Shown: in pieces, positions 3,294 through 15,028 of the stretch
Numbering within the stretch: position 1 is the stretch's first letter
Layout: each line of letters opens with the position of its first letter
Virus record (IMG/VR): IMGVR_UViG_3300012936_000247
Location: 1-20,195 of that record
From: a virus
Direction: 5' to 3' (one strand)
DNA length: 20,195 nucleotides
Made by a program: the position numbers and the translations under genes
The notes under the pieces: model-generated
Seen by the model: only the letters and a program-made list of their open reading frames with translations
Databases searched by the model: none
What the model was told of the DNA's origin: nothing

Positions 3294-3722
3294 ATGACAC
3301 TTGTAAATGCCCGAGCTGCTTTTGAAAAAGCCGTAACTGATGCGGTAGTTGCTGCAGACGCCACAGTGTCAATGATTTATGACAACGTTCGATTTACTAC
3401 GCCAGGTAAAACCAAAAAGTATGTGGCGATAAAGATTACGTTCAACCAGTCAACTTTGCAAAACCAAGGCGCTGCTACGGACTATTACAGCGGAGTTGTC
3501 CAGTGCAACGTGTATGTACCCAAGTCTGCTGGCACGGCAGCACTTGCAGCAGTTAGCGAGTCAGTGATCGATGGTTTAACTTCTGTCAATGCTGCTAACT
3601 ACACTGACGCTTTTAGTGTTTCTCCAAGAGTTTTAGACGTTACTGGTCCTAGTGCTTTAGAGCTTGAAGACCGTCCTCATTTCCTAGGAATTATTTCTTG
3701 CCAATTTACAGCAGTTGTATAG
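3294..3722 (+). CDS. Tail terminator protein
   Basis: This 142-residue protein has an N-terminal helix (A-R-A-A-F-E-K-A-V-T-D-A-V), then an alternating beta region with K-K-Y-V-A-I-K-I-T-F and a Y-S-G-V-V-Q-C-N-V-Y-V-P strand, a central helix, and a final strand G-I-I-S-C-Q-F-T-A-V-V. This alpha-beta plan and the position just before the tail chaperone match the lambda gpU-like/tail-terminator family that caps the tail tube and joins it to the head. GGAG (3279-3282) lies 11 bases before the ATG. The tail tube gene usually found next to it is absent here and lies about 10 kb downstream. Confidence 0.72.
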   Translation: MTLVNARAAFEKAVTDAVVAADATVSMIYDNVRFTTPGKTKKYVAIKITFNQSTLQNQGAATDYYSGVVQCNVYVPKSAGTAALAAVSESVIDGLTSVNAANYTDAFSVSPRVLDVTGPSALELEDRPHFLGIISCQFTAVV

Positions 3723-3730
3723 TATATTAG

Positions 3731-4099
3731 TTGAAACAAGATTGTTTTATGCGAGCCACTGAACTGCTTCGGAACAAATTTGGCATTAGTCAGCTTTACA
3801 AGCATGAAGTTAAAGATGGCGACGAAGTGGTGCTTGAGGTTTACTGGCATCCGCTAACTATCGCCGAGCGGGAAGCCATCCAAAAAAAAGCAGGATCTGA
3901 CGATGCCAACGATTTTGCGTTGGGCATGATGATTGAAAAATCTCTTGACGCAGATGGCAACCGTCTGTTTCAGGATGGCGAAAAAGCTCAGCTTAAAAAC
4001 GCTGTAGACGCCAGTGTATTGCAGGATATTCAACTTGCCATGCTGTCTTCTGGCTCAGAAAACAAAGTGGAGGAAGCGAAAGCTGATTTGAAAAGCTAA
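3731..4099 (+). CDS. Tail assembly chaperone, zero-frame product (lambda gpG-like)
   Basis: The frame gives 122 residues from TTG 3731 or 116 from ATG 3749, which begins M-R-A-T-E-L-L and is the likelier start. The protein has a small beta/alpha N-terminal part with V-L-E-V-Y-W-H-P-L-T-I-A-E-R-E, typical of phage tail assembly chaperones (compare phrases such as V-x-L-x-x-L-T-x-x-E-R), then acidic helices. It sits directly between the tail terminator and the tape measure gene, the conserved place for lambda G/GT-type chaperones, which bind the tape measure protein during tail assembly. Its end overlaps another open frame encoding a T-like domain (4092-4289), suggesting a longer frameshifted product. 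I see no strong ribosome binding site for either start. Confidence 0.78.
   Translation: MKQDCFMRATELLRNKFGISQLYKHEVKDGDEVVLEVYWHPLTIAEREAIQKKAGSDDANDFALGMMIEKSLDADGNRLFQDGEKAQLKNAVDASVLQDIQLAMLSSGSENKVEEAKADLKS
4091..4094 (+). promoter_or_regulatory. Candidate +1 frameshift site (AAA-A) in the tail chaperone
   Basis: The zero frame reads TTG AAA AGC TAA (4088-4099). The downstream T-like frame is open only from 4092, because a TGA occupies 4089-4091 in that frame. Any shift must therefore happen within about two codons. At AAA-A (4091-4094) a Lys tRNA could move +1 and re-pair perfectly, then continue GCT AAT AGC. A -2 shift reaches the same frame, but I see no good re-pairing for it. The frame geometry is seen; the mechanism is inferred. 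Confidence 0.5.
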
Positions 4100-4289
4100 T
4101 AGCAGCTGGTTTTTCATTTTTTTTCTTGCAAAGGAGCTGGGCACTACAGTGGCTCAGCTCTCTTGCCATTTAACGCAAGAAGAGTTGGTGGGTTGGGCTG
4201 CTTTTTTTGAATTAAAAAGTGAACAGGAAGACAAGGCTAGAGATCGTGTGCAAACCAGTCGAGGAGCGCAAACGATGGGAAGGCGGTAA
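4092..4289 (+). CDS. Tail assembly chaperone extension (lambda gpT-like), probably made by frameshift
   Basis: This 65-codon frame has no ATG before its core. It begins with a hydrophobic stretch W-F-F-I-F-F-L, then A-K-E-L-G-T-T-V-A-Q-L and E-E-L-V-G-W-A-A-F-F-E-L, a pattern seen in T-domains of G-T chaperones (R-x-L-G-x-T-V-x-E-L ... E-L-x-x-W-x-A-Y-x-x-L). The only start inside is GTG 4149, which would remove the L-A-K-E-L-G part; AAGGAG (4131-4136) lies 12 bases before it, so independent translation is a weaker alternative. Fused to the upstream frame by a +1 shift at 4091-4094, the product would be about 179 residues from ATG 3749. A run of eight T (4117-4124) lies in this frame. The gene is easily missed because of its size and lack of start. 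Confidence 0.68.
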   Translation, partial: KANSSWFFIFFLAKELGTTVAQLSCHLTQEELVGWAAFFELKSEQEDKARDRVQTSRGAQTMGRR

Positions 4290-4319: not shown

Positions 4320-7300
4320 GTGGCTGATTACGGCGTAAATATTGCGGTTGCGGTCAAAAACAGCCAGGCAGTCACGCAGCTTTCTAATAAACTAAAAGAC
4401 ACTGCAGCAAAAATTGAACATATAAATACTCATTTTAATAGTTTTGCAAACATGACCGGGAAAGTCCTTCCTGGCTCTATTGCTAATTTTAATAAAGCAT
4501 TAAGTGACGCATCAAGCAATTTAAATAATGCTGCTCTAGGAACAAAGGCGGCAACTGAAGCTGCAAGAGATTACGTTAAAGCTCAAAATGAGGCTAATGC
4601 TGCGTTAAAAGAGCAGCAAAATTTGCTTCGAGCTGCTCGACTTGCAGGCGAAACTGTTTCTAAAAAACCATTTGGCCCTATGCCATTTGGACAAAACCCT
4701 GGAGATGTTCCTACAAAAGGTCGTCCAGCTTTTGACCCGGTGGAAGGGCGACAACAGGCGATTGCTCGTATGGTAATGCTTGAAACGGCTGCAGACGTAA
4801 AAGTTGCAGATGCAAAGCGAAATTTTATTCTTGAACTTGGCCAAATTGAATTAGACCTTGATCGTAAAATTAGAAACAGAGAAATAGACAACATTATAGA
4901 ACAGGTTAAGCTTGAAAGTAAACTCCAAGATGATCTTTTTAAGTCAGCAATAAAAAAAAGTGAAAAAAGAGCGCAAGCGTTTATGGAAGAGCTTGGGTTT
5001 AGAAAGGGTGAAGAATTAAAAGCGATAGCAGAAGTTGATAGAGCAAGAAAAAAAGCAGAAGGCGAGGCAGTAAGACTTACTGGCCAAACCAGTCCAATCG
5101 GTGGAGCACTAGGTATTCCAGGCAGTCCTGCTGCTTTGCTTGCAGCTCAAAAAGCTCAAAAATTAAAGTCTGCTCAAAGCAGTGCGCTTATTGGAGGAGC
5201 ATTTCCATTGTTGTTTGGCCAAGGACTCGCTTCTTCAATAGGTGGCGGACTTGGCGGTTTTGCGGGAGGTCTTATTGGCGGAGAATTTGGGTTTGGATTG
5301 TCCTTAATCGGAACGCAAATAGGGTCAATTATTACGCAAGCAAATGAAATGGCAGCTGCGCTTGGAAAAGCGTTTAGGACAGGTGTAGGTGCAGCGCAAG
5401 CCTTGGAAGAGGCTATTGGAGAATTAAGCGTTGAAAACAAGGATTATATTAACAATTTAGAAAAATCTGGTCAACTTGGAAAACAACAGCGAGCAATTCT
5501 GGAGCAACTTGAGGAAAAACTTGGTAATGGAGCTAAAGCCTTTTTAGAAAGTGCTAAAGCGGCTGACCGAGCAGATAGATCTACTCAGCAATTTATAAAA
5601 ACACTTCAACGTCTTATTGTTCCTGCGGGAACTGAGTTTGATGTGTTAACTACCGGAAAACCTGTTACTGAGGTTGAAAAAACTCCAGAGTTAACAAAAG
5701 CTGCGCAACGAAGAATAGAAGTTTCTAATCAGTCTCTTGAAATTGAAAAATTAATTTCATCAGAACAAGCCCTGCAAGGCACTAAATTATTTAAAAAAAT
5801 TGCACTAGCAAAACAAGCAACAGCTCAGGCTAAATTTGACCTAGAGCTTACCAAATTGCGAGCAAAAGAGGAGCAAGGAATAATTACTGAAAAAGAATAT
5901 GAAAATGAATTAGAAATAAAAGCGATTCAGCTAGGAAGAATAATGACAGATATTGAGCGAGAAAAAGCTGAAGCAATTAAAAATTCAGCTGAAGAAGCAA
6001 AAAAACTTGTTGACCAGCTTGCTTTAGGAGTTGCGCGGGCACAACAGCCGGGAGTAAGTCTTGCAAAGCAAATACGCAATGAAAACAAATTTTTACAAAA
6101 TGCTGTTAAATTTGGAGAGAAATCTGCTCGAGATTTGCAGCAAATAACAAGATTAACCATGAGCGGGGCAATGAGTCGCGAAGAAGCAACAAAACTGGTT
6201 GCAGAAAATCGAAAACTTAAAGATGCCTTAGACGCAGGCAAGACCTCTGAAGGTAAAGATTTTACTCCGCAACTTAAAAAACGCCTCGGCATTATTGAAG
6301 CCCAGATTAAGGCAGAAGAAGAAATTGTTGGGTTAAGCCAGGAAGGAGCTGCTATTATTAGTCGCAAACTTGCATTTGAAAAACGTATTGCTCAAATACG
6401 TGAAACTGGAAAAGCAGAACGGCAGAAACTAGCTGATTTGGAAGATATTTCTTTAAGCAAGTCTATTGAAGAAAATGGAATCAAACTTGCAACGCTGCAG
6501 TTTGAGCGAGAAATTGCTGTTGCTTTAGAACAGTCAACTAAAGCAAGTGAAAAAACACTTGAACCTGTTCAGAAAAAATTAAACGCATTAAAGGATCGCA
6601 ATGCGTTTGAGCGTGAATACGGAGAGCTGATTATGAGCGGCTCAACAACCGCTGCTGCCAAACAAGTTATCGAAGCTAAAAAACAGGTTAAAGAAATTGA
6701 TGAACTTGTTAAAAAACAAATTTTATCAAATCAAATACAAATTAACATTTTAAGAGTTATTGTTGCTCAAGCTATCAATACTGATCATCACGCAGAAGCA
6801 CAAGAAGCATTAAACGATGCTTTGGAGCGTGAAAAAGAGATTAGAGAAGAAGGCGAAAAAGCCAAGGGCGAGGTTAAAGGCAAAAAAACTCCTGCAGAAA
6901 ATATTGAAGCAGAAATGAAACGCATTCAAGGCGCTCTTAATGATCTTGTTGATCCTTCAAATCAAGTTATTGCAGCTGCTAATGCTATTGGCGATGCGTT
7001 TAGCGAGTCGTTTAAGGGGTTAATTACCGGCAGCATGTCTGCTCAAGAAGCACTTAGAAATTTATTTGCGCGTACTGCAGATCATTTTGCGGACATGGCA
7101 GCGCAAATGATTGCTCATACAATCCGGATGAAGATTTTGGGCATTGCGCTTAATTTCTTTGGATCAGCTGCTGGGTCGGCGGCTCAAGGCAGTTTTGCAG
7201 GTGTGCCTAATTCAACGTTGGATTCGGTGCTGCCCAGCACAAGCAGCTTGGCGGATGCTGCTGCTTCAACTCCCATAACTCCCTTAAGGCTCAACGCAGA

Positions 7301-7664
7301 GGGAAGTTATGTTTCTGGCCCAACTGCAACTTTGGTTGGCGAGGGTGGCCAAGGCGAGTACATCATCCCTGAAAGCAAGATGCGTGAAAGCATGGCGCGG
7401 TACTCGCGTGGTGCTCGCGGATCTTCTGTCATTCCCGAAACGGGGGCTTCTGGAACGTCAGGAGAAGGAGGCGGTGTAGCCGTTGCCGCACCAATCGATG
7501 TTCGGTACACCGTAGAACGCATCAACAGCGTTGATTATGTTACGGCTGATCAGTTCCAGCAAGGCATAAGGCAAGCTGCTGATCAGGGTGCTAAACAGGG
7601 TGAACAACAAACGCTTAAGCGGTTGCAGATGAGCAGCAGCACTCGTAAGAGGTTAGGAATGTGA
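4320..7664 (+). CDS. Tail tape measure protein
   Basis: At 1114 residues this is the tail length ruler, also acting in DNA ejection. It starts at GTG 4320 (M-A-D-Y-G-V-N-I); no good Shine-Dalgarno is visible. Long Lys/Glu/Ala-rich helices fill about residues 20-250 and 360-870. A very hydrophobic, glycine-rich block (about 288-340, with L-I-G-G-A-F-P-L-L-F-G and G-G-L-G-G-F-A-G-G-L-I-G-G) looks membrane-active. Near the C-terminus, A-L-R-N-L-F-A-R-T-A-D-H-F-A-D-M (about 910) and G-P-T-A-T-L-V-G-E-G-G (about 1000) followed by E-Y-I-I-P-E are hallmarks of tape measure C-termini. At the usual 0.15 nm per helical residue, the tail would be roughly 165 nm (inference). Much of the gene is A-rich, unlike the capsid gene. 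It ends in a 4-base overlap with the next GTG. Confidence 0.93.
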   Translation: MADYGVNIAVAVKNSQAVTQLSNKLKDTAAKIEHINTHFNSFANMTGKVLPGSIANFNKALSDASSNLNNAALGTKAATEAARDYVKAQNEANAALKEQQNLLRAARLAGETVSKKPFGPMPFGQNPGDVPTKGRPAFDPVEGRQQAIARMVMLETAADVKVADAKRNFILELGQIELDLDRKIRNREIDNIIEQVKLESKLQDDLFKSAIKKSEKRAQAFMEELGFRKGEELKAIAEVDRARKKAEGEAVRLTGQTSPIGGALGIPGSPAALLAAQKAQKLKSAQSSALIGGAFPLLFGQGLASSIGGGLGGFAGGLIGGEFGFGLSLIGTQIGSIITQANEMAAALGKAFRTGVGAAQALEEAIGELSVENKDYINNLEKSGQLGKQQRAILEQLEEKLGNGAKAFLESAKAADRADRSTQQFIKTLQRLIVPAGTEFDVLTTGKPVTEVEKTPELTKAAQRRIEVSNQSLEIEKLISSEQALQGTKLFKKIALAKQATAQAKFDLELTKLRAKEEQGIITEKEYENELEIKAIQLGRIMTDIEREKAEAIKNSAEEAKKLVDQLALGVARAQQPGVSLAKQIRNENKFLQNAVKFGEKSARDLQQITRLTMSGAMSREEATKLVAENRKLKDALDAGKTSEGKDFTPQLKKRLGIIEAQIKAEEEIVGLSQEGAAIISRKLAFEKRIAQIRETGKAERQKLADLEDISLSKSIEENGIKLATLQFEREIAVALEQSTKASEKTLEPVQKKLNALKDRNAFEREYGELIMSGSTTAAAKQVIEAKKQVKEIDELVKKQILSNQIQINILRVIVAQAINTDHHAEAQEALNDALEREKEIREEGEKAKGEVKGKKTPAENIEAEMKRIQGALNDLVDPSNQVIAAANAIGDAFSESFKGLITGSMSAQEALRNLFARTADHFADMAAQMIAHTIRMKILGIALNFFGSAAGSAAQGSFAGVPNSTLDSVLPSTSSLADAAASTPITPLRLNAEGSYVSGPTATLVGEGGQGEYIIPESKMRESMARYSRGARGSSVIPETGASGTSGEGGGVAVAAPIDVRYTVERINSVDYVTADQFQQGIRQAADQGAKQGEQQTLKRLQMSSSTRKRLGM

Positions 7665-8161
7665 CGCAGTTTGCTTTTGGCCATGTTTTACGAATCAAGG
7701 CAAAAAAGACCGTTGAATTTCGGTATCAAAACTTTTTTATTAACAAGCAACTAAACCATAAAGGCGCAACTGATGAAACGCCACAAAGTTATTTTTTTGT
7801 GCCTTTTGGTTTTTCTGGCGTCACCGTTAACCGCACAGGTGACGGACTTGAATCCACGCTTGTTTTTCCAAATAATGAACTAACTCGTAGTTGGGCGGTT
7901 GAAGCAATTCAAGATAGTCACATGATAGAGGTTGATGTTTTAATTATCGAAGACACTGACCCTGACACTGGCCTTACAGCAAACCACTCCACTGTCCATA
8001 CCTATACCGGCCAAGTCACTGGCGGGCAATGGGATAACGTCTCGCTCAACCTAGAGCTAAGTTCTGTTTTAGATGCCGTTGGAACGGATGTGCCAAGGCG
8101 ATCTTTGACGCAACGCATAGTTGGAAACTTGCCGATTAGCAACAGTGTCCGACTGCAGTGA
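7661..8161 (+). CDS. Minor tail protein, lambda gpL-like by position
   Basis: The 166-residue product starts at GTG 7661, overlapping the tape measure stop in GTGA. It is mostly beta-type sequence with F-F-V-P-F-G-F-S-G-V-T-V near residue 45 and a C-terminal segment V-P-R-R-S-L-T-Q-R-I-V-G-N-L-P followed by S-N-S-V-R-L. A tail of this form (R-R-x-L-T ... L-P-x-S-x-x-V-R-L) occurs in phage minor tail proteins encoded just before NlpC/P60 genes. No cysteine cluster like that binding Fe-S in lambda gpL is seen. It probably forms part of the tail tip, between tape measure and tip hub. The exact family is not assigned. Confidence 0.6.
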   Translation: MTQFAFGHVLRIKAKKTVEFRYQNFFINKQLNHKGATDETPQSYFFVPFGFSGVTVNRTGDGLESTLVFPNNELTRSWAVEAIQDSHMIEVDVLIIEDTDPDTGLTANHSTVHTYTGQVTGGQWDNVSLNLELSSVLDAVGTDVPRRSLTQRIVGNLPISNSVRLQ

Positions 8162-8513
8162 TCTCATCGGAATGCCGTATCGGCTGGGCGCTGACGGCAG
8201 TGATGGTTATATCGACTGCATCCACCTGTGTTATCAGGCATTGGAGCGGATGGGCATTGACGCGCCACCGTTTAAGCAATCTTGGTATAAAGCGACTAAG
8301 CGGGAGGTGTGCCGAGACTTGTTGACTTGGGGTTCCCGAGTAGAGCGGCCTCAGTATGATGGAGATATTCTGCTGCTATCGCAGCAATCCTGGGCATTTG
8401 CAGTCACATGGCAGACGGGAATCTTGTACGTCAATCGAAGAATGCAACAGGTGCAGTGGTCTACGGTCCAACTGTTTACGACGTACCACTGCTTCCGTAC
8501 GAGAAAGAGTTAA
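8145..8513 (+). CDS. NlpC/P60-like tail tip protein (lambda gpK-like), possibly inactive
   Basis: From GTG 8145 the product has 122 residues; TTG 8121 is an alternative start but would increase overlap with the previous gene to 41 bases. D-L-I-G-M-P-Y-R-L-G (residues 5-15) and G-Y-I-D-C-I-H-L-C (21-29) match the NlpC/P60 start and nucleophile region, with Cys25 as the candidate nucleophile. D-G-D-I-L-L-L (72-78) fits the next strand. The strand where the catalytic His is expected reads W-A-F-A-V-T-W (83-89), with no His. These proteins usually cut peptidoglycan at the tail tip; this one may be degenerate or use a changed active site. Its last 106 bases overlap the tip gene in another frame. 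The family call is fair, activity doubtful. Confidence 0.68.
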   Translation: MSDCSDLIGMPYRLGADGSDGYIDCIHLCYQALERMGIDAPPFKQSWYKATKREVCRDLLTWGSRVERPQYDGDILLLSQQSWAFAVTWQTGILYVNRRMQQVQWSTVQLFTTYHCFRTRKS

Positions 8514-11500
8514 TCAAGACGATTGGTATAACAGAAGAGGAATATCGCAAGTTTGCTGCCGAAGTACGCCGCAAAGGCGTGGTGCGTCCTGCTGAGTATG
8601 AGCATATTCCTGATATTCAGGCTGGAGAAACTGCAACAGTTATTTTAATTAACCTTGCCATTAGCTTGGTGCTGACTGGTGTTAGTTACCTGTTGACACC
8701 AAAGCCAAAGATGCCGGAGGCATCAAAGCGGTCGCAACTAGATCTTGGGAGTGTCAACGCAGGCAACCGTTTTACGCAAAGCCGGGGCTTTGACACGCTT
8801 AACGAGCTGGCAGATTATGGCGCACCCGTTCCAATTATTTTTGGTCTTTACGATGACGCAACAAATGCTGGCGGAATGCTTATTACGCCAAAACTTGTTT
8901 GGTCACGGATGTTTAGCCATGGGACGCAACAGTCTGCCAAGTTGATGTTTGTTGTCGGCGAACAAGGAGTTACTGACGATGAAAAACCTGATGGAATTGA
9001 GCCACCAAGCCTTGAGGGAATTTTTCTTGGCAATAATGCCCTAGATGCCATCCACAAAGACTTTTTTGCTTTTTACTGGAAACGAAATACGACTATACCC
9101 CGCAAAACTCGGATTAGGTTCAGCGACATAGTCCACGGAACTAACGGGACTTTAGATGCGGGAGACCCCTCTGTATTTTCTGAGGGTGAGGAAAATGATG
9201 ATGCTTTTACATGTCCAAGCAATGATACCAATAACTCAAAAAATTTCTGCCACGCATATTCGTTATCAAATAACACGCAATTTGGGGTTCACGCAGCGAT
9301 ACCGAATGGCAATGGCTATAGGGTAAATTATGAGACTGTATCAGTTATAGAGGATCTTACATCAGATGACGCTGATAAAGCAGAAAGACAACGAGGATTT
9401 GACTTGATGATGCGTCGGATAAAAATTGTTGGAGATAGTGATAAAAATGTAGACGCAGGTGACAGAGACGCTTTACGCGAACTTAAACCGCAAGGCATGG
9501 AAGGAACAGGGCGTCAATATAGCCCTCGTATGGGCTTAGTTAAATTAACAAGAAAATCAGATAATAGCTCAATTACTGTAGATGGTTTAGGCATAGACGA
9601 CAAACTCTCTGATGTGGTAGAAGTAGAAGAAGGGGATATAGTAAGATTTGTCATTGATCCGTCAAAAATACCTGAAGACAAATATCGCCGTGGATCAGAT
9701 AAGAGAGGAGAAAGCGTTGACGATATAAACCAAACAGTTGCTTCAGAGCAAATCGCGGCTGACAATGTCATGCAAATTGGCGAACAATTTGCGATTGGAA
9801 ATACTTTGTGGAAAGTAGTAAAAAGAAAGTTAACTCAATACGACCCTGACGTTTCAGATGCCGAAAGACAAATAATAACGTTGCGTTGTCTTAGCGTAGA
9901 TGAGTCACGAAATAAAAAAATTGGTCTTGTTAGTGAAAAGCTTGTAATTAAGCCTGAAGGCAAAGATTTTATTGCTGATAAAGGCGGCATTGGAGCTGGC
10001 TTTTTCCCTATTACGCGCGTTTCAACAGGGTTGGTAAGAAACAACAGACCTGCTGTCGTTACTGAAATTGGAATAAAAAGCAGAGTTTTTCAGCGTTTAA
10101 ATGGCTTATGCGCTTTTAATACCATTCCAAGCCCGGAAAAACTTAAAGAGCTTGACGAAAAAGAGGCACAAGTACGCTCTGGAACGTACACTGGGCACAT
10201 TAAAAGAACTTCTGTTTTTCAAGTATTTGTACGCCAGGCCGGTTTAGATGAAAATGGCAATAGTTTTAATTTTGAAAAAATAGATCATTACTTTGCAGTT
10301 ACAGGAAGCAAACCCGTTGATCAGTATAACTCTATACGTTTTATTCATCGCGCAGCGCCAGTTGAGTTAGAATATAAATTTGTAAGTATTCCCGGCTCTG
10401 AATTACGCAGCCTTGCAGATGAACAAGAAATAATCAGCCTTTCAGGTTCTTTTTCTGATGAAAAAACGAAATTGCTTCCTTTGCTTGCTGACGTTGGAAC
10501 CCTTGGAAGATTTGAGATTAAGGTTGCAGGAACAAGTGTTAGAAAAGACAGTATTAAAGTTAACAAAGAATTTATTAGAAATCCTGAAATAATAGAAGTC
10601 AAAAGCTCTGCAACTTCAGGTTTACCCGGAGTAATTTCTAGCAACTTTGTGTTGCCGTCTCAAGAAGAAACAGCAATAGTAGCAACAGCTATTAGAAAAA
10701 CTGTCAATATATCAAGCATCGATCCGCTTGGTATAGAAGGCTTTCCTGGGAAAAACGGAGCATTCTTTTATGAAATTTTTGGCCGTTGCGATAATGATCC
10801 AATCAATGAAGGGGGATTTAAAAGAACAACAACAAGAGAAAATTTTGGTATAGGTAGGTGGGTTATCGTTAAATGGGAAGTACAAAAAGTAAGACTGCCT
10901 GATTTGCATTATGCGCGTGTAAATAATGGGGTAAATTTTACATGGAAATTTATTAGTTGTGAACTTGTAAGCAGTTCAGACCAGTTTGATTTTAACGCTG
11001 GTCTTCAAATTAAACGCGGCCTTGGTTCTACAGAGGATGGAGGTAGTACAGCAGCTTACACAAACTCAAATCCATTTGTTCGTAATCACCCAAATGGAAC
11101 GATGACCTTTTCTGGTCAAAATTATGTAGTTACAGATATTGGCGTAGCAAGAGGGCCTTTAGGTCGAGAACAAGCTTATTATTACGAAGTTTTTGGCGAT
11201 CCCGAAACATTAGACACTGGAGAGTCAAAAACAGTTACTCGAACTTATGCGGAAGGGCTTAAAACTATTAGATTTAAATTAACAGCAACTGTCAAAAAAA
11301 TAGATGCAAGGGATTTTGCTGGTAAAATTAAAGTCTGGAATCATCCCAATAAAATTAAAGTTGTTGAAACAGGCACGACAACTAACTGGACAGAGGATGA
11401 AGTTTTTCCAGATATTGTCGTGATTGCTTCTAACAACCCATACAGAACTTCTTTTGATTTAGGCGGTTTTGAATATATTATTTCAGATATAAACACAAAA

Positions 11501-12895
11501 CCCATAACAATACCAACTGGCGAGCTATTCTTTGAATTTCAAAGTCAGTATGTAGATCTTAGTTTTTACAGAAGTTTCGTACAAAAATCAAATGAATCTG
11601 AGCCTGAACACGCTATTGTTTATGTAAATGAAATTGTTGAAAACGCAGAGATTCCAGAGTATAAAAATTTAACTCTTGCTGGTTTATCGCTAAAAGCAAG
11701 TCGTAATTTTACTAGTTTAGATCAACTGCGTTGCTGGCTAGGAAGTGGTTTGCATGTTAAAAGGTTGCATCCTAGCTTGAAGGTTTATGATCAGCAAGGC
11801 TCTGAAGCTAACCGCAAAGAAATTGGCCCAAGTAATTTATTTACTGATTTAGTTTTTTACCTGTTAACCGATCAAACAGGTGGAGCGGGAGCCTTGCTAA
11901 AAATAGATAAAAACAATCCAGTTCTGCTAGACAAAGATGGAGCAAGAGGAGAAAATTTAAGCGTTTTTAAAATTGCTTCTCGTTTTTTGCACACACAAAA
12001 GTTATTTTTTAATGGGGTGGTTGGCGATAGGACAAATCTTCGCCAGTACATTACTGACACGGCTCCGTACTTTTTGTTGAATTTTGTAATTACAGATGGT
12101 AAGTTTTCCCTAAAACCTGCAATACCTGTAATGGAAAAAAGCGGTCAAATTAACATTGGGCCGGTAGAAATAGATCAGCTTTTTACAGCTGGCAACATTT
12201 TAGAAGACAGTTATAAACTTGAGTATTTAAGAAGCGAAGAGCGTAGACCTTTTAATGCAGTGGTGCGTTATAGGGAAGAATCTAAGAACAAGCTACCTGA
12301 GGAAAAAACGGTACAAGTCAGCCTGAAAAGACAGCTTCAAAAACACGACATAGACGTATTGCCTCAAGAGCAATTTGACCTAACACAGTTCTGCACTTCA
12401 AGAACTCACGCAATTAAAGTTGCAAAATACTTTTTAGGGATTCGCGATTTAGTAACCCATACAATTTCTTTCTCAACAACTTTGCACGGGCTGAACTTAC
12501 GTGCTGGATCTTATATAAAAGTTATTACAAGTTCTAGCCCTTATCTTAGCGCAAATAATGGAACAGTAAGCTCCGCTGGAGTAGTAAATAGCTTGCAAGA
12601 CATGCCTGACAACCAATATAAAGTGTTTTTCTTTAAAACAAACTCGCAGGACGTTGAGGAAGGAATAATGCAAGTTAGTGATGGGAAAGTGTCCGATACA
12701 ACTTTTCACGACACAGTTTTCAGTGTTAAAAATGAAAACGTCTCACAAAACGTGTATGTTGTAGAGCAGCTGACTTTTTCTCAGGAAGGAACGGTGGACA
12801 TTGTTGCTTCAGAGCATCCTTGCGATGATGATGGGAGCAGCAAGCTTGCAAAACTAATTGCAAGTGAAGATTCTGTAATTATTGAATCAACCTAA
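8408..12895 (+). CDS. Tail tip / host specificity protein, fused gpI-like and gpJ-like parts
   Basis: At 1495 residues this is the second largest structural element of the tail. ATG 8408 lies inside the NlpC/P60-like gene; GTG 8456 is a later in-frame alternative. Residues 28-70 (L-L-P-Y-E-K-E-L ... P-A-E-Y-E-H-I-P-D) are a motif common in tip proteins of this type. A hydrophobic segment (76-96) followed by T-P-K-P-K resembles lambda gpI, and F-D-T-L-N-E-L-A-D-Y-G-A-P-V-P-I-I-F-G (128-146) resembles the start of gpJ hub domains. A later region with E-H-A-I-V-Y-V-N-E and L-A-G-L-S-L-K-A-S (about 1075-1110) is also gpJ-like. Residues about 770-1060 contain imperfect repeats. It should form the tail hub and base of the host-binding tip. 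The DNA is A/T-rich for most of its length. Confidence 0.88.
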   Translation: MADGNLVRQSKNATGAVVYGPTVYDVPLLPYEKELIKTIGITEEEYRKFAAEVRRKGVVRPAEYEHIPDIQAGETATVILINLAISLVLTGVSYLLTPKPKMPEASKRSQLDLGSVNAGNRFTQSRGFDTLNELADYGAPVPIIFGLYDDATNAGGMLITPKLVWSRMFSHGTQQSAKLMFVVGEQGVTDDEKPDGIEPPSLEGIFLGNNALDAIHKDFFAFYWKRNTTIPRKTRIRFSDIVHGTNGTLDAGDPSVFSEGEENDDAFTCPSNDTNNSKNFCHAYSLSNNTQFGVHAAIPNGNGYRVNYETVSVIEDLTSDDADKAERQRGFDLMMRRIKIVGDSDKNVDAGDRDALRELKPQGMEGTGRQYSPRMGLVKLTRKSDNSSITVDGLGIDDKLSDVVEVEEGDIVRFVIDPSKIPEDKYRRGSDKRGESVDDINQTVASEQIAADNVMQIGEQFAIGNTLWKVVKRKLTQYDPDVSDAERQIITLRCLSVDESRNKKIGLVSEKLVIKPEGKDFIADKGGIGAGFFPITRVSTGLVRNNRPAVVTEIGIKSRVFQRLNGLCAFNTIPSPEKLKELDEKEAQVRSGTYTGHIKRTSVFQVFVRQAGLDENGNSFNFEKIDHYFAVTGSKPVDQYNSIRFIHRAAPVELEYKFVSIPGSELRSLADEQEIISLSGSFSDEKTKLLPLLADVGTLGRFEIKVAGTSVRKDSIKVNKEFIRNPEIIEVKSSATSGLPGVISSNFVLPSQEETAIVATAIRKTVNISSIDPLGIEGFPGKNGAFFYEIFGRCDNDPINEGGFKRTTTRENFGIGRWVIVKWEVQKVRLPDLHYARVNNGVNFTWKFISCELVSSSDQFDFNAGLQIKRGLGSTEDGGSTAAYTNSNPFVRNHPNGTMTFSGQNYVVTDIGVARGPLGREQAYYYEVFGDPETLDTGESKTVTRTYAEGLKTIRFKLTATVKKIDARDFAGKIKVWNHPNKIKVVETGTTTNWTEDEVFPDIVVIASNNPYRTSFDLGGFEYIISDINTKPITIPTGELFFEFQSQYVDLSFYRSFVQKSNESEPEHAIVYVNEIVENAEIPEYKNLTLAGLSLKASRNFTSLDQLRCWLGSGLHVKRLHPSLKVYDQQGSEANRKEIGPSNLFTDLVFYLLTDQTGGAGALLKIDKNNPVLLDKDGARGENLSVFKIASRFLHTQKLFFNGVVGDRTNLRQYITDTAPYFLLNFVITDGKFSLKPAIPVMEKSGQINIGPVEIDQLFTAGNILEDSYKLEYLRSEERRPFNAVVRYREESKNKLPEEKTVQVSLKRQLQKHDIDVLPQEQFDLTQFCTSRTHAIKVAKYFLGIRDLVTHTISFSTTLHGLNLRAGSYIKVITSSSPYLSANNGTVSSAGVVNSLQDMPDNQYKVFFFKTNSQDVEEGIMQVSDGKVSDTTFHDTVFSVKNENVSQNVYVVEQLTFSQEGTVDIVASEHPCDDDGSSKLAKLIASEDSVIIEST

Positions 12896-13674
12896 TGGCT
12901 TTTCCAATTCTCAAGCCTTCTGGCCGTACTTTTGAGCCTGGAGGCTATCCAGTCAAAACGTTCAAGTCGCAAAGCGGGGCTGAAACTCGAATTTTGTATG
13001 GCAGTCAGCGAACTGATGTCAAGCTCAGCTTGTCCTATGCCAACATTGGCGATCCAAACGTTGAGCTATTTCTTGACCATTACGATGAAATGCAAGGCAC
13101 GTTTCAAACCTTTAGTTTGCCTGGTCAGGCTCTAGGAGGTTGGAGCGGCAATAAGGACGCTTTGAGGCCATCTAAAATTGAAATTTCAACCGTTACCTAC
13201 CGAGTAGAGGTGGTTAGCACTAGTGGGGGCAACAAATACCGTTTTGATGGAGTTACTTCTGACGCACAAACTTTGGAATTGACTGAAGGTACAGTGTATT
13301 TATTTAGTCAGCAGCACAATTCCAACGCAGGCCACCCCTTGCGGTTTTCTGAGGACAGCGATGGAACGCACGGGGGTGGAACGGAGTACACCACAGGCGT
13401 AACGACATTTGGGACGCCTGGGCAGGATGGTTCATATACAAGAATTCTTGTAGCAAAAGACGCTCCAACGCTGTATTACTACTGCAGTGTTCATTCTGGA
13501 ATGGGAGGCCAAGCCAATACGCCTGCTGCAACAACAACCGCTGTCAATTCTGGCAACACGGCTGAATACAGATATGAGGGTCCACCACAGGTTGTTCAGG
13601 TGCGACCTGGGGTAAGCACTGTTACAGTGAATCTGATTGGCGTGACCACTGATTCTGCGAGGAATGCTTCCTGA
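12895..13674 (+). CDS. gpM-like minor tail protein with inserted cupredoxin-like domain
   Basis: This 259-residue protein appears to have a split outer domain. Residues 1-98 (G-Y-P-V-K-T-F-K-S-Q-S-G, R-I-L-Y-G, L-S-L-S-Y-A-N-I) and 222-250 (A-E-Y-R-Y-E-G-P-P-Q-V, then V-T-V-N-L-I-G-V) resemble the two ends of lambda gpM-like tail tip proteins. Between them, about 102-208, lies a module with G-H-P-L-R-F (His147) and Y-Y-Y-C-S-V-H-S-G-M-G-G (Cys197, His200, Met203). This is the ligand order of type 1 copper cupredoxins, although plastocyanin has four rather than two residues between His and Met. Such modules recur in marine phage structural proteins. The start overlaps the tip gene stop as TAATG. 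Copper binding is inferred. Confidence 0.72.
   Translation: MAFPILKPSGRTFEPGGYPVKTFKSQSGAETRILYGSQRTDVKLSLSYANIGDPNVELFLDHYDEMQGTFQTFSLPGQALGGWSGNKDALRPSKIEISTVTYRVEVVSTSGGNKYRFDGVTSDAQTLELTEGTVYLFSQQHNSNAGHPLRFSEDSDGTHGGGTEYTTGVTTFGTPGQDGSYTRILVAKDAPTLYYYCSVHSGMGGQANTPAATTTAVNSGNTAEYRYEGPPQVVQVRPGVSTVTVNLIGVTTDSARNAS
13200..13518 (+). other. Cupredoxin-like insert within the gpM-like gene
   Basis: This stretch encodes residues about 102-208 of the gene at 12895-13674. It contains the candidate copper ligands His147, Cys197, His200 and Met203, and a Gly/Thr-rich loop with S-D-G-T-H-G-G-G-T-E-Y. Boundaries are approximate, set by where gpM-like sequence stops and resumes. Confidence 0.6.
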
Positions 13675-14117
13675 TGTCAAAGGTCTACTCCGGCAGAGAT
13701 GGGGTATTGCAAGTCGGTGGAACGACTCTTGCCAAGGTCGTTAATTTTCAGCTGTCTGCAAATTTAGAAACACTTGAAACAACATCATTAAACGAGCATA
13801 TTCGTGTTTATGTGCCTGGCGTAGTGGGTTATAGCGGCAGCGCGACGTTGCTGTATTACAAAGAGGATAACGGTACTTTTAACACCGCAAACATCCTTAA
13901 CAGTCTTTATAAGACCGGCCCTGATGGCGTTAGCAGCAGCGATATTGTTGAGTTAACTTTTCGCTGGGTTGATGGAGTGGACAATAAAGACATTGTATTA
14001 GACGCATATATCACCAGTGCATCCATTGGCGCGGCAACAGGCGATATTGTCCGAGCTGAGATCGCGTTCCAAGGGACCGGTACATTGAAATCTGTAACCA
14101 TAAATACTCCCTCATGA
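13674..14117 (+). CDS. Tail tube (major tail) protein
   Basis: The 147-residue product is a compact beta-rich protein: a short N-terminal strand region with G-R-D-G-V-L-Q-V-G-G, then V-N-F-Q-L-S-A-N-L-E-T-L-E-T-T, a G-Y-S-G-S-A-T-L-L-Y-Y strand, a helix-like N-T-A-N-I-L-N-S-L-Y, and final strands with V-L-D-A-Y-I-T-S-A-S and A-E-I-A-F-Q-G-T-G. This order is typical of tube proteins, with E-T-x-E-T-T-S-L marking the subunit-joining region. It should polymerise around the tape measure protein. GAGGA (13659-13663) lies 10 bases before ATG 13674, which overlaps the previous stop (TGATG). Tube genes normally lie before the chaperone pair; here it lies after the tip gene. Confidence 0.78.
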   Translation: MSKVYSGRDGVLQVGGTTLAKVVNFQLSANLETLETTSLNEHIRVYVPGVVGYSGSATLLYYKEDNGTFNTANILNSLYKTGPDGVSSSDIVELTFRWVDGVDNKDIVLDAYITSASIGAATGDIVRAEIAFQGTGTLKSVTINTPS

Positions 14118-15028
14118 CAGTATATCTTGGAACTCACGGCGAAATTGAGTTAAAGCGTGTCTTTAATGGCGGCAAGTTGCAAGCAAGCATCAATGCTGCC
14201 GCAAACAATGCTGGTGATGTAAATGCAACTGAAAAACGATTTGGTTTTGATTTTAAGCACGGTGACTCTTTATCAGACGATTTAAAACACGGCTTGCTTT
14301 TAACAGGTGATCAAATTGAGATTACAACCACTGATAACACTGCCCTTGATTTTATTGACAGCTATACAGATTCAAGCGTTAAAAAATTTATTCACGTTGA
14401 CGAGCTAGACGGCATCAGGCTTTACAACAGTTTTGCCCATGCGGTCAGTGGCGGCAAAGCAAACGCAATTGCTCTTGCATGTTCAGGCAGCCTGAGAAAC
14501 GTCGAAATAGTTGTTGAATCTGCTGCGCCGCGTCTTTTGGCTCAAGTCAACAGTTTTGAGATAAATACCGAGCGTGAAACAGTAGACACGACAGTGTTGT
14601 CTGATGAATTTCGTTCCAGAGTCAATACGTTAATTTCTGGTTCTGGTCGCATCAGTGCGTTTTGGGAGTACACAGGTGACACGGCTAATGAGTTGCCGAT
14701 GTATTTATATGAGTTAGCGCATCGCACCAAGGTTGGTAGCAATTTTGTCGGGCGTTTTTACATTAAAAAAGCTGGGTATAACCCGAGCGGTGTAGCGGAA
14801 CGAAATAATGATGAGATTTGGTGGAACGTGGAAGGAATTATCACGGCAGCAGCCATTCAGTTTTCACCTGACAGCACAGTGCAAATCACTGCTGATTTCG
14901 TAACGACAGGCGAACTGCGTCTACGAATGGACCTTGACCCTCCGGTGGGGATCTTGCAAGAGGACAATGGTCAAATACGCTTGGATCAAGACGGTGCGGC
15001 TAAACTTGGCCTACAGCAGCAAACCTGA
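14114..15028 (+). CDS. Second tail-tube-like protein with an extra N-terminal domain
   Basis: This 304-residue protein overlaps the tube gene by ATGA. Its C-terminal half (about 139-275) parallels the 147-residue tube protein strand by strand: V-N-S-F-E-I-N-T-E-R-E-T-V-D-T-T against V-N-F-Q-L-S-A-N-L-E-T-L-E-T-T, S-G-S-G-R-I-S-A-F-W-E-Y against G-Y-S-G-S-A-T-L-L-Y-Y, L-P-M-Y-L-Y-E-L against a similar helix, then I-T-A-A-A-I-Q-F and I-T-A-D-F-V-T-T-G-E-L against I-T-S-A-S-I and A-E-I-A-F-Q-G-T-G-T-L. The N-terminal about 138 residues do not match a family I know. It could be a minor tube ring at the tail end, a decorated tube subunit, or an adaptor between tube and fibres. The likeness is seen; the role is inference. 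Confidence 0.65.
   Translation: MTVYLGTHGEIELKRVFNGGKLQASINAAANNAGDVNATEKRFGFDFKHGDSLSDDLKHGLLLTGDQIEITTTDNTALDFIDSYTDSSVKKFIHVDELDGIRLYNSFAHAVSGGKANAIALACSGSLRNVEIVVESAAPRLLAQVNSFEINTERETVDTTVLSDEFRSRVNTLISGSGRISAFWEYTGDTANELPMYLYELAHRTKVGSNFVGRFYIKKAGYNPSGVAERNNDEIWWNVEGIITAAAIQFSPDSTVQITADFVTTGELRLRMDLDPPVGILQEDNGQIRLDQDGAAKLGLQQQT

Follow-up and report, generated by a model that had tools for sequence, protein, structure and literature searches.

A conserved AAA_AGC site and a probable programmed +1 frameshift in the tail assembly chaperone genes of a marine phage and its relatives

Reading frames and identity of the tail chaperone locus

The window, that is, the whole stretch of 20,195 nucleotides analysed from IMG/VR virus record IMGVR_UViG_3300012936_000247, carries a G-like gene between a tail terminator gene and a tape measure gene, with a change of frame near the 3′ end of G leading to a T-like open frame (Table 1). 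By direct reading, the G-like ORF ends in ...VEEAKADLKS*, and the T-like frame, which stands in a +1 (or −2) relation to it, is translated as KANSSWFFIFFLAKELGTTVAQLSCHLTQEELVGWAAFFELK...MGRR* with its stop codon at 4287-4289. Since a TGA closes the T frame on the 5′ side and a TAA closes the G frame on the 3′ side, a frame change is possible only at AAA_AGC, over about two codons. Read in −1, the sequence is translated as FEKLIAAGFSFFFLQRSWALQWLSSLAI* up to a stop at 4171-4173, and a T-like domain looked for in this frame of the window was not found. These readings agree with the initial annotation, which had reached T from G by +1 (or −2), limited the switch to about two codons at TTG AAA AGC TAA, and described the −1 frame as ending near 4173 without a T-like domain; the arrangement of the G and T frames is also kept in relatives. 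No tRNA gene was found within the window.

Table 1. Coordinates in the window of the chaperone frames, the shift site and neighbouring features
Feature	Position	Strand	Description	Evidence
Tail terminator gene (context)	3294..3722	+		phrog_179 E 2.5e-12
G-like tail assembly chaperone ORF	3749..4099	+	116 aa, product of standard decoding	phrog_20784 E 2e-25; phrog_344 'tail assembly chaperone' E 4e-5
GTGGAGGAAGCG, purine-rich Shine-Dalgarno-like block	4067..4078	+	5′ of shift site; proposed role	conserved
TGA closing T-like frame 5′ of shift site	4089..4091	+		direct reading, T frame
Shift site AAA_AGC	4091..4096	+	P-site Lys AAA, A-site Ser AGC; +1 reads AAA GCT	
T-like open frame	4092..4289	+	reached by +1	phrog_26456 E 1e-6; phrog_337 E 6e-4
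G-frame stop (TAA)	4097..4099	+	directly after AGC in the window	
Tape measure gene (context)	4320..7664	+	1114 aa	position; weak phrog_1107 tape measure match E 0.017

The G proteins of 38 of 60 relatives matched phrog_344, and phrog_337 is common to the T of the window and lambda gpT, which was also matched by a profile of the T family (E 9e-4, profile comparison). The lambda G sequence showed no match to G of the window family, and no useful match was obtained when PDB sequences were searched with the G profile as query. The predicted G model (mean pLDDT 82), compared with PDB by Foldseek, was closest to the HK97 tail assembly chaperone, with 2ob9_A and 2ob9_B as the two top hits (prob 1.00, TM 0.51-0.61, E ~0.01). 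The phrog matches, the gene neighbours, the gpT profile match and the 2ob9 fold match thus support the tail chaperone pair named in the initial annotation, and gene position, G fold and T homology place the pair with the siphovirus G/GT tail assembly chaperones, in which a fusion protein produced at a low ratio is required in tail assembly. It is like lambda G/GT and HK97 (the family of Xu, Hendrix and Duda 2004) in its position before the tape measure gene, its small G and its T as a C-terminal extension, but differs from them in its predicted +1 shift at AAA_AGC instead of −1 on a slippery heptamer.

Other tail genes showed features of their own. In the window, G directly follows the tail terminator (3722-3749) without a tail tube gene between, and two major-tail-protein-like genes are found ~9.5 kb 3′ of the chaperone pair (13674-14117 and 14114-15028). 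S-2L has an annotated major tail protein just 5′ of the chaperone. Two further tail genes of the window, 8121-8513 (phrog_329-like) and 8408-12895 (J-like), overlap by ~106 bases, each in its own frame; the overlap may be real, or the J-like gene may have a misplaced start.

Conservation of the +1 relation and of AAA_AGC

T was in the +1 frame in all 80 of the nearest IMG/VR loci (G identity 88-100%). A second marine group, around the single-cell virus AG-345-A17, had it there in 80 of its 81 loci, and for the window's own clade as a whole the count is 161 of 162. A locus resembling the AG-345 group, with TTA_AAA_AGC and T in +1, lies on a contig (L461) of the Prochlorococcus single-cell genome AG-418-M08, which suggests, short of proof, a Prochlorococcus host. 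Of two genome scans, the first was without a match and the second yielded this Prochlorococcus contig together with one from a metagenome bin, both +1. Among the records searched, none of the +1 type came from a cultured phage. T was likewise in +1 in two sets for which 'freshwater' is an inferred label, one made up of the 9 loci that lie nearest to KBS-S-2A and the other of loci around L201 (12 of 13 in +1). Altogether 182 of 184 loci of the +1 type had T in +1, the remaining two being without a T-domain score, and these 182 loci are spread over three clades in the tree. In the window group, the T frame varied most at its third positions (0.53 vs 0.18 and 0.14), so T is under coding selection and a decayed frame is excluded. 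The +1 relation is neither an error nor a chance event.

The initial annotation had proposed an alignment of related phages at the site, and this revealed an in-frame AAA_AGN in every +1 locus. Among 179 loci, the second codon was AGC in 170, AGT in 6, AGG in 2 and AGA in 1, and in five further +1 loci, where the stop is more distal, it was always AGC. The P-site Lys codon was AAA and never AAG, whereas the codon 5′ of it was free (TTG, TTA, CTC, CTT, CTA, CTG, ATG or TCC), and in 140 of the 179 loci the second A of the AAAA run is the very base at which the T frame becomes open. Conservation was also evident among 29 window-group representatives that were <90% identical around the site: AAA was found in 29/29 and AGC in 28/29, the adjacent Leu codon was mixed, and AGC accounted for 22% (41/186) of Ser codons elsewhere in these G genes. 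When identity was lowered to 75%, 15 representatives remained, all with AAA_AGC or AAA_AGT.

Because the G stop has a variable position among +1 relatives, 0-8 codons past AGN, it is not essential to the signal, and a stop-codon pause of the RF2 type was ruled out by this distance. A rare-codon pause at AGC in its simple form was ruled out as well, since the window uses AGC for Ser more often than any other codon (26%); competition with GCN at the A site is possible. Since AGC is not rare and AAAAGC occurs in frame four times in the ORFs of the window, the hexamer alone is not the whole signal and context must matter.

XXXYYYZ heptamers occurred within the last 12 codons in only 26 of 184 +1 loci, no heptamer able to serve −1 was conserved in the window's clade, and the −1 frame of the +1 loci terminates 3 to 29 codons beyond the stop. 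Neither the window nor its clade belongs to the class with a canonical −1 heptamer (X_XXY_YYZ, T in −1).

Proposed shift, its context and the alternatives

Frame relation, conservation, homology and the direction changes within the family were established by computation, whereas the sign of the shift (+1 and not −2), what the upstream block does, how efficient the shift is and how its products function are inferred. A programmed +1 ribosomal frameshift probably yields a G-T fusion (predicted length 179 aa) as a minor product beside the major G of 116 aa. Peptidyl-tRNA-Lys would sit on AAA (4091-4093) while AGC waits in the A site; the tRNA-Lys would then slip one base forward to the overlapping AAA (4092-4094), GCT (Ala) would enter the A site, and translation would run through the T domain to its stop. 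The fixed AGN, mostly AGC, would fit a competition of Ser-tRNA in the 0 frame with Ala-tRNA in +1. Both GCT and GCA are frequent in the window, at 36 and 32 per thousand codons compared with 22 for AGC. The ribosome would probably be paused by the upstream Shine-Dalgarno-like block. If the pair works as in lambda, G would bind the tape measure protein and T would recruit the tail tube protein.

Sites of similar logic have been reported. The window site agrees with the forward rule of PRFect, which takes three or four equal bases and a commoner +1 codon (PMC10885494), and fits the logic of Ty1 and Ty3, in which a slow 0-frame codon competes with an abundant +1 tRNA (PMC5009743). In a Ty1 reporter in yeast, +1 shifting was 1.2% at AAA-AGG-C, 0.05% at AAA-CGT-C and 0.02% at AAA-ATT-C (PMC4627075), and the slow AGG after AAA is a precedent in yeast for +1 at Lys AAA (PMC4627075). 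In Ty1 (CUU_AGG_C) and Ty3 (GCG_AGU_U), as here, the A site is occupied by an AGN codon that specifies an amino acid, and Ty1 also has a favourable overlapping +1 codon (PMC5009743); both differ in being eukaryotic and in having an A-site codon known to be slow.

The block upstream of the site was examined in the marine groups. In the window group its codons are GTG GAG GAA GCG, with GTG, GAG and GCG in 29/29 and GAA in 26/26 sequences vs an expected synonymous usage of 19-75%; its predicted pairing with the anti-SD in the window is ~−9.3 kcal/mol, and its best 6-mer ends 16 nt 5′ of the P-site codon. The AG-345 group has fixed synonymous choices upstream at AAG GAG, plus GAG GCT AAA GCC, although GAG and GCC make up elsewhere ~8% of the codons for their amino acids, and the block lies ~22 nt from the P site; across the marine groups the distance is 16-23 nt. 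Freshwater +1 loci have a weaker SD-like block at variable distance. The block beat synonymous shuffles in the +1 marine groups but not in the −1 groups, with a mean per-sequence z of only −1 to −1.7 and among related sequences. The prfB +1 signal has its SD ~3 nt from the slip codon, and the spacing observed here (16 / ~22 nt) fits neither prfB +1 nor dnaX geometry. Judged from sequence, the upstream block is the obvious candidate for the needed context, though its spacing is unlike that of prfB. A small upstream hairpin, GC-NAAA-GC, was considered and rejected, as the A-K-A codons account for it and the window group does not keep its outer pair.

Downstream RNA structure was rejected as a stimulator in the window group, where the consensus was only −4.4 kcal/mol and no pair covaried. 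Two hairpins lie 3′ of A_AAA_AAC in the KBS −1 group, with a consensus of −33.7 kcal/mol and seven pairs changed on both sides. Mean structure z for the groups was ~−5 for KBS, ~−2 for the window, and −0.5 to −1.1 for AG-345 and the freshwater +1 loci; since no strong structure is present at the corresponding place in the other −1 groups (S-H1 z −1.4, HTVC026P z −0.5), this contrast in stimulators is limited to the KBS group and does not extend to −1 loci generally. The hairpins at KBS-type −1 loci, for example at ~2272-2336 of L083, a cultured cyanophage without an annotated T extension, look like classical −1 stimulators.

The frame of T would be reached equally well by a programmed −2 shift, and the tail chaperone pair of Mu, which has this net frame relation, is cited as a −2 case (PMC2628397). 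What separates the two directions is re-pairing: a +1 slip puts AAA on AAA, which is perfect in every +1 locus, whereas the −2 landing codon varies (TGA, TAA, TCA, TTA or CCA) and pairs badly with the anticodon UUU of tRNA-Lys, while a tRNA-Ser would land on AAA. The window differs from Mu in this respect, having no conserved −2 target codon, and the conservation of AGY would be without a role in such a slip. The wide spacing of the SD-like block would favour backward movement under the tension model of SD spacing, which was drawn from dnaX and prfB. Because of the perfect AAA re-pairing we prefer +1 and regard −2 as unlikely; the predicted junctions are ADLK-ANSSW for +1 and ADLKK-ANSSW for −2 after AAA.

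It is quite improbable that T is made separately, by re-initiation or an internal start, and not as a G-T fusion. The window has a T-frame GTG at ~4150 preceded by AAAGGAG, and the S-H1 annotation gives a short ORF of its own over the T region, but homology with other T domains begins 5′ of this GTG, the first T-frame start codon lies anywhere from codon 6 to 61 and is absent in 6 loci, and bases at and 5′ of AAA_AGC are conserved. Transcriptional slippage on the A run appears very improbable, as the run present at the site has only four, sometimes five A, known slippage runs being longer than this, and AGY would not be needed. An assembly error or pseudogene is scarcely credible at all: apart from the split frame itself nothing speaks for it, and against it stand the same arrangement in all 80 close relatives, which are separate metagenome contigs, and in the Prochlorococcus contig, as well as the coding selection seen at third positions of the T frame.

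Distant relatives, switches of direction and known systems

T was in the −1 frame in 188 more distant loci around KBS-S-2A, S-H1, HTVC026P and S-2L, and 186 of these had an in-frame canonical heptamer (A_AAA_AAC in 184 and A_AAA_AAA in 2). With the KBS T domain as its anchor, a further scan retrieved 80 loci, partly on contigs already counted, which were all −1 with A_AAA_AAC, A_AAA_AAA or C_CCA_AAA by inspection. The contention of the initial annotation that the shift is +1 rather than −1 is supported within the window's clade, where a single locus of 162 departs from T in +1 and no serving heptamer is conserved, and gives way only in these more distant homologues with −1 heptamers, in which T truly lies in −1. 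Thus, as far as sequences can tell, one chaperone family uses both directions, each with its own site.

Variants of the −1 site were observed as well. In the HTVC026P group (L296-L375) and in L086 (~2292-2303) it lies inside a run of nine A (GTAAAAAAAAAC), where transcriptional slippage could act beside or instead of ribosomal slippage. A KBS-like subgroup (L412, L414, L421, L453 and similar loci) has C_CCA_AAA for A_AAA_AAC and is still −1; L453 reads C_CCA_AAA_GCT, with AAAAGC in another frame.

In a G+T tree of 42 rows and 170 columns, from which the end of G near the site was excluded, shift direction changes at least 3 times, also when starred branches only are counted; groups were chosen after the frames had been seen, and the long branches of S-2L, L204 and L199 blur details. 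A single clade for all +1 rows was rejected (AU p 0.007), but a single clade for the two freshwater +1 sets was not (p 0.066), so two or three switches of direction in the family are likely, with gain and loss not distinguishable. Whether AAA_AGY, in marine phages together with the purine-rich block, is a recurrent bacterial +1 cassette that was swapped several times with a −1 heptamer-plus-hairpin, the T frame being re-set each time, seems to us evenly balanced.

G/GT frameshifting is described in PMC5009743 as widespread in long-tailed phages and mostly −1, and the tail chaperone of haloarchaeal virus HSTV-2 is given there as 'very likely +1'. The SEA-PHAGES annotation used by PRFect also holds +1 shifts, most of its joined genes being tail chaperones (PMC10885494). 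These chaperones are likewise inferred to be +1, in different hosts, the likeness lying in shift direction and not in a comparison of sites; the window family differs in the conservation of its site across many genomes and in having −1 relatives. Listeria phages PSA, A118 and A500 have +1 shifts in structural genes too (capsid or tail shaft), but at proline CCC before a stop codon or pseudoknot and in genes other than that of the window (PMC5009743). The window is not of the RF2 (prfB) type, with AGN in the A site, the stop 0-8 codons on and the SD-like block 16-23 nt away in marine loci. No paper on the AAA_AGC site or on direction switching in this chaperone family was found among the open-access papers searched. 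While +1 shifts of tail chaperones have already been inferred elsewhere, the AAA_AGY site and the switching in this family appear to be new.

For programmed shifts in the forward direction, no general motif has been agreed on (PMC10885494). AAA_AGY, fixed in many marine and freshwater phages beside −1 relatives, offers a matched pair for testing shift direction. An AAA_AGY rule would also help annotators find T domains, which in the cyanophage records examined were left out or listed as a separate ORF. If true, the recurrent swapping of +1 and −1 cassettes would be a natural series on what sets frameshift direction.
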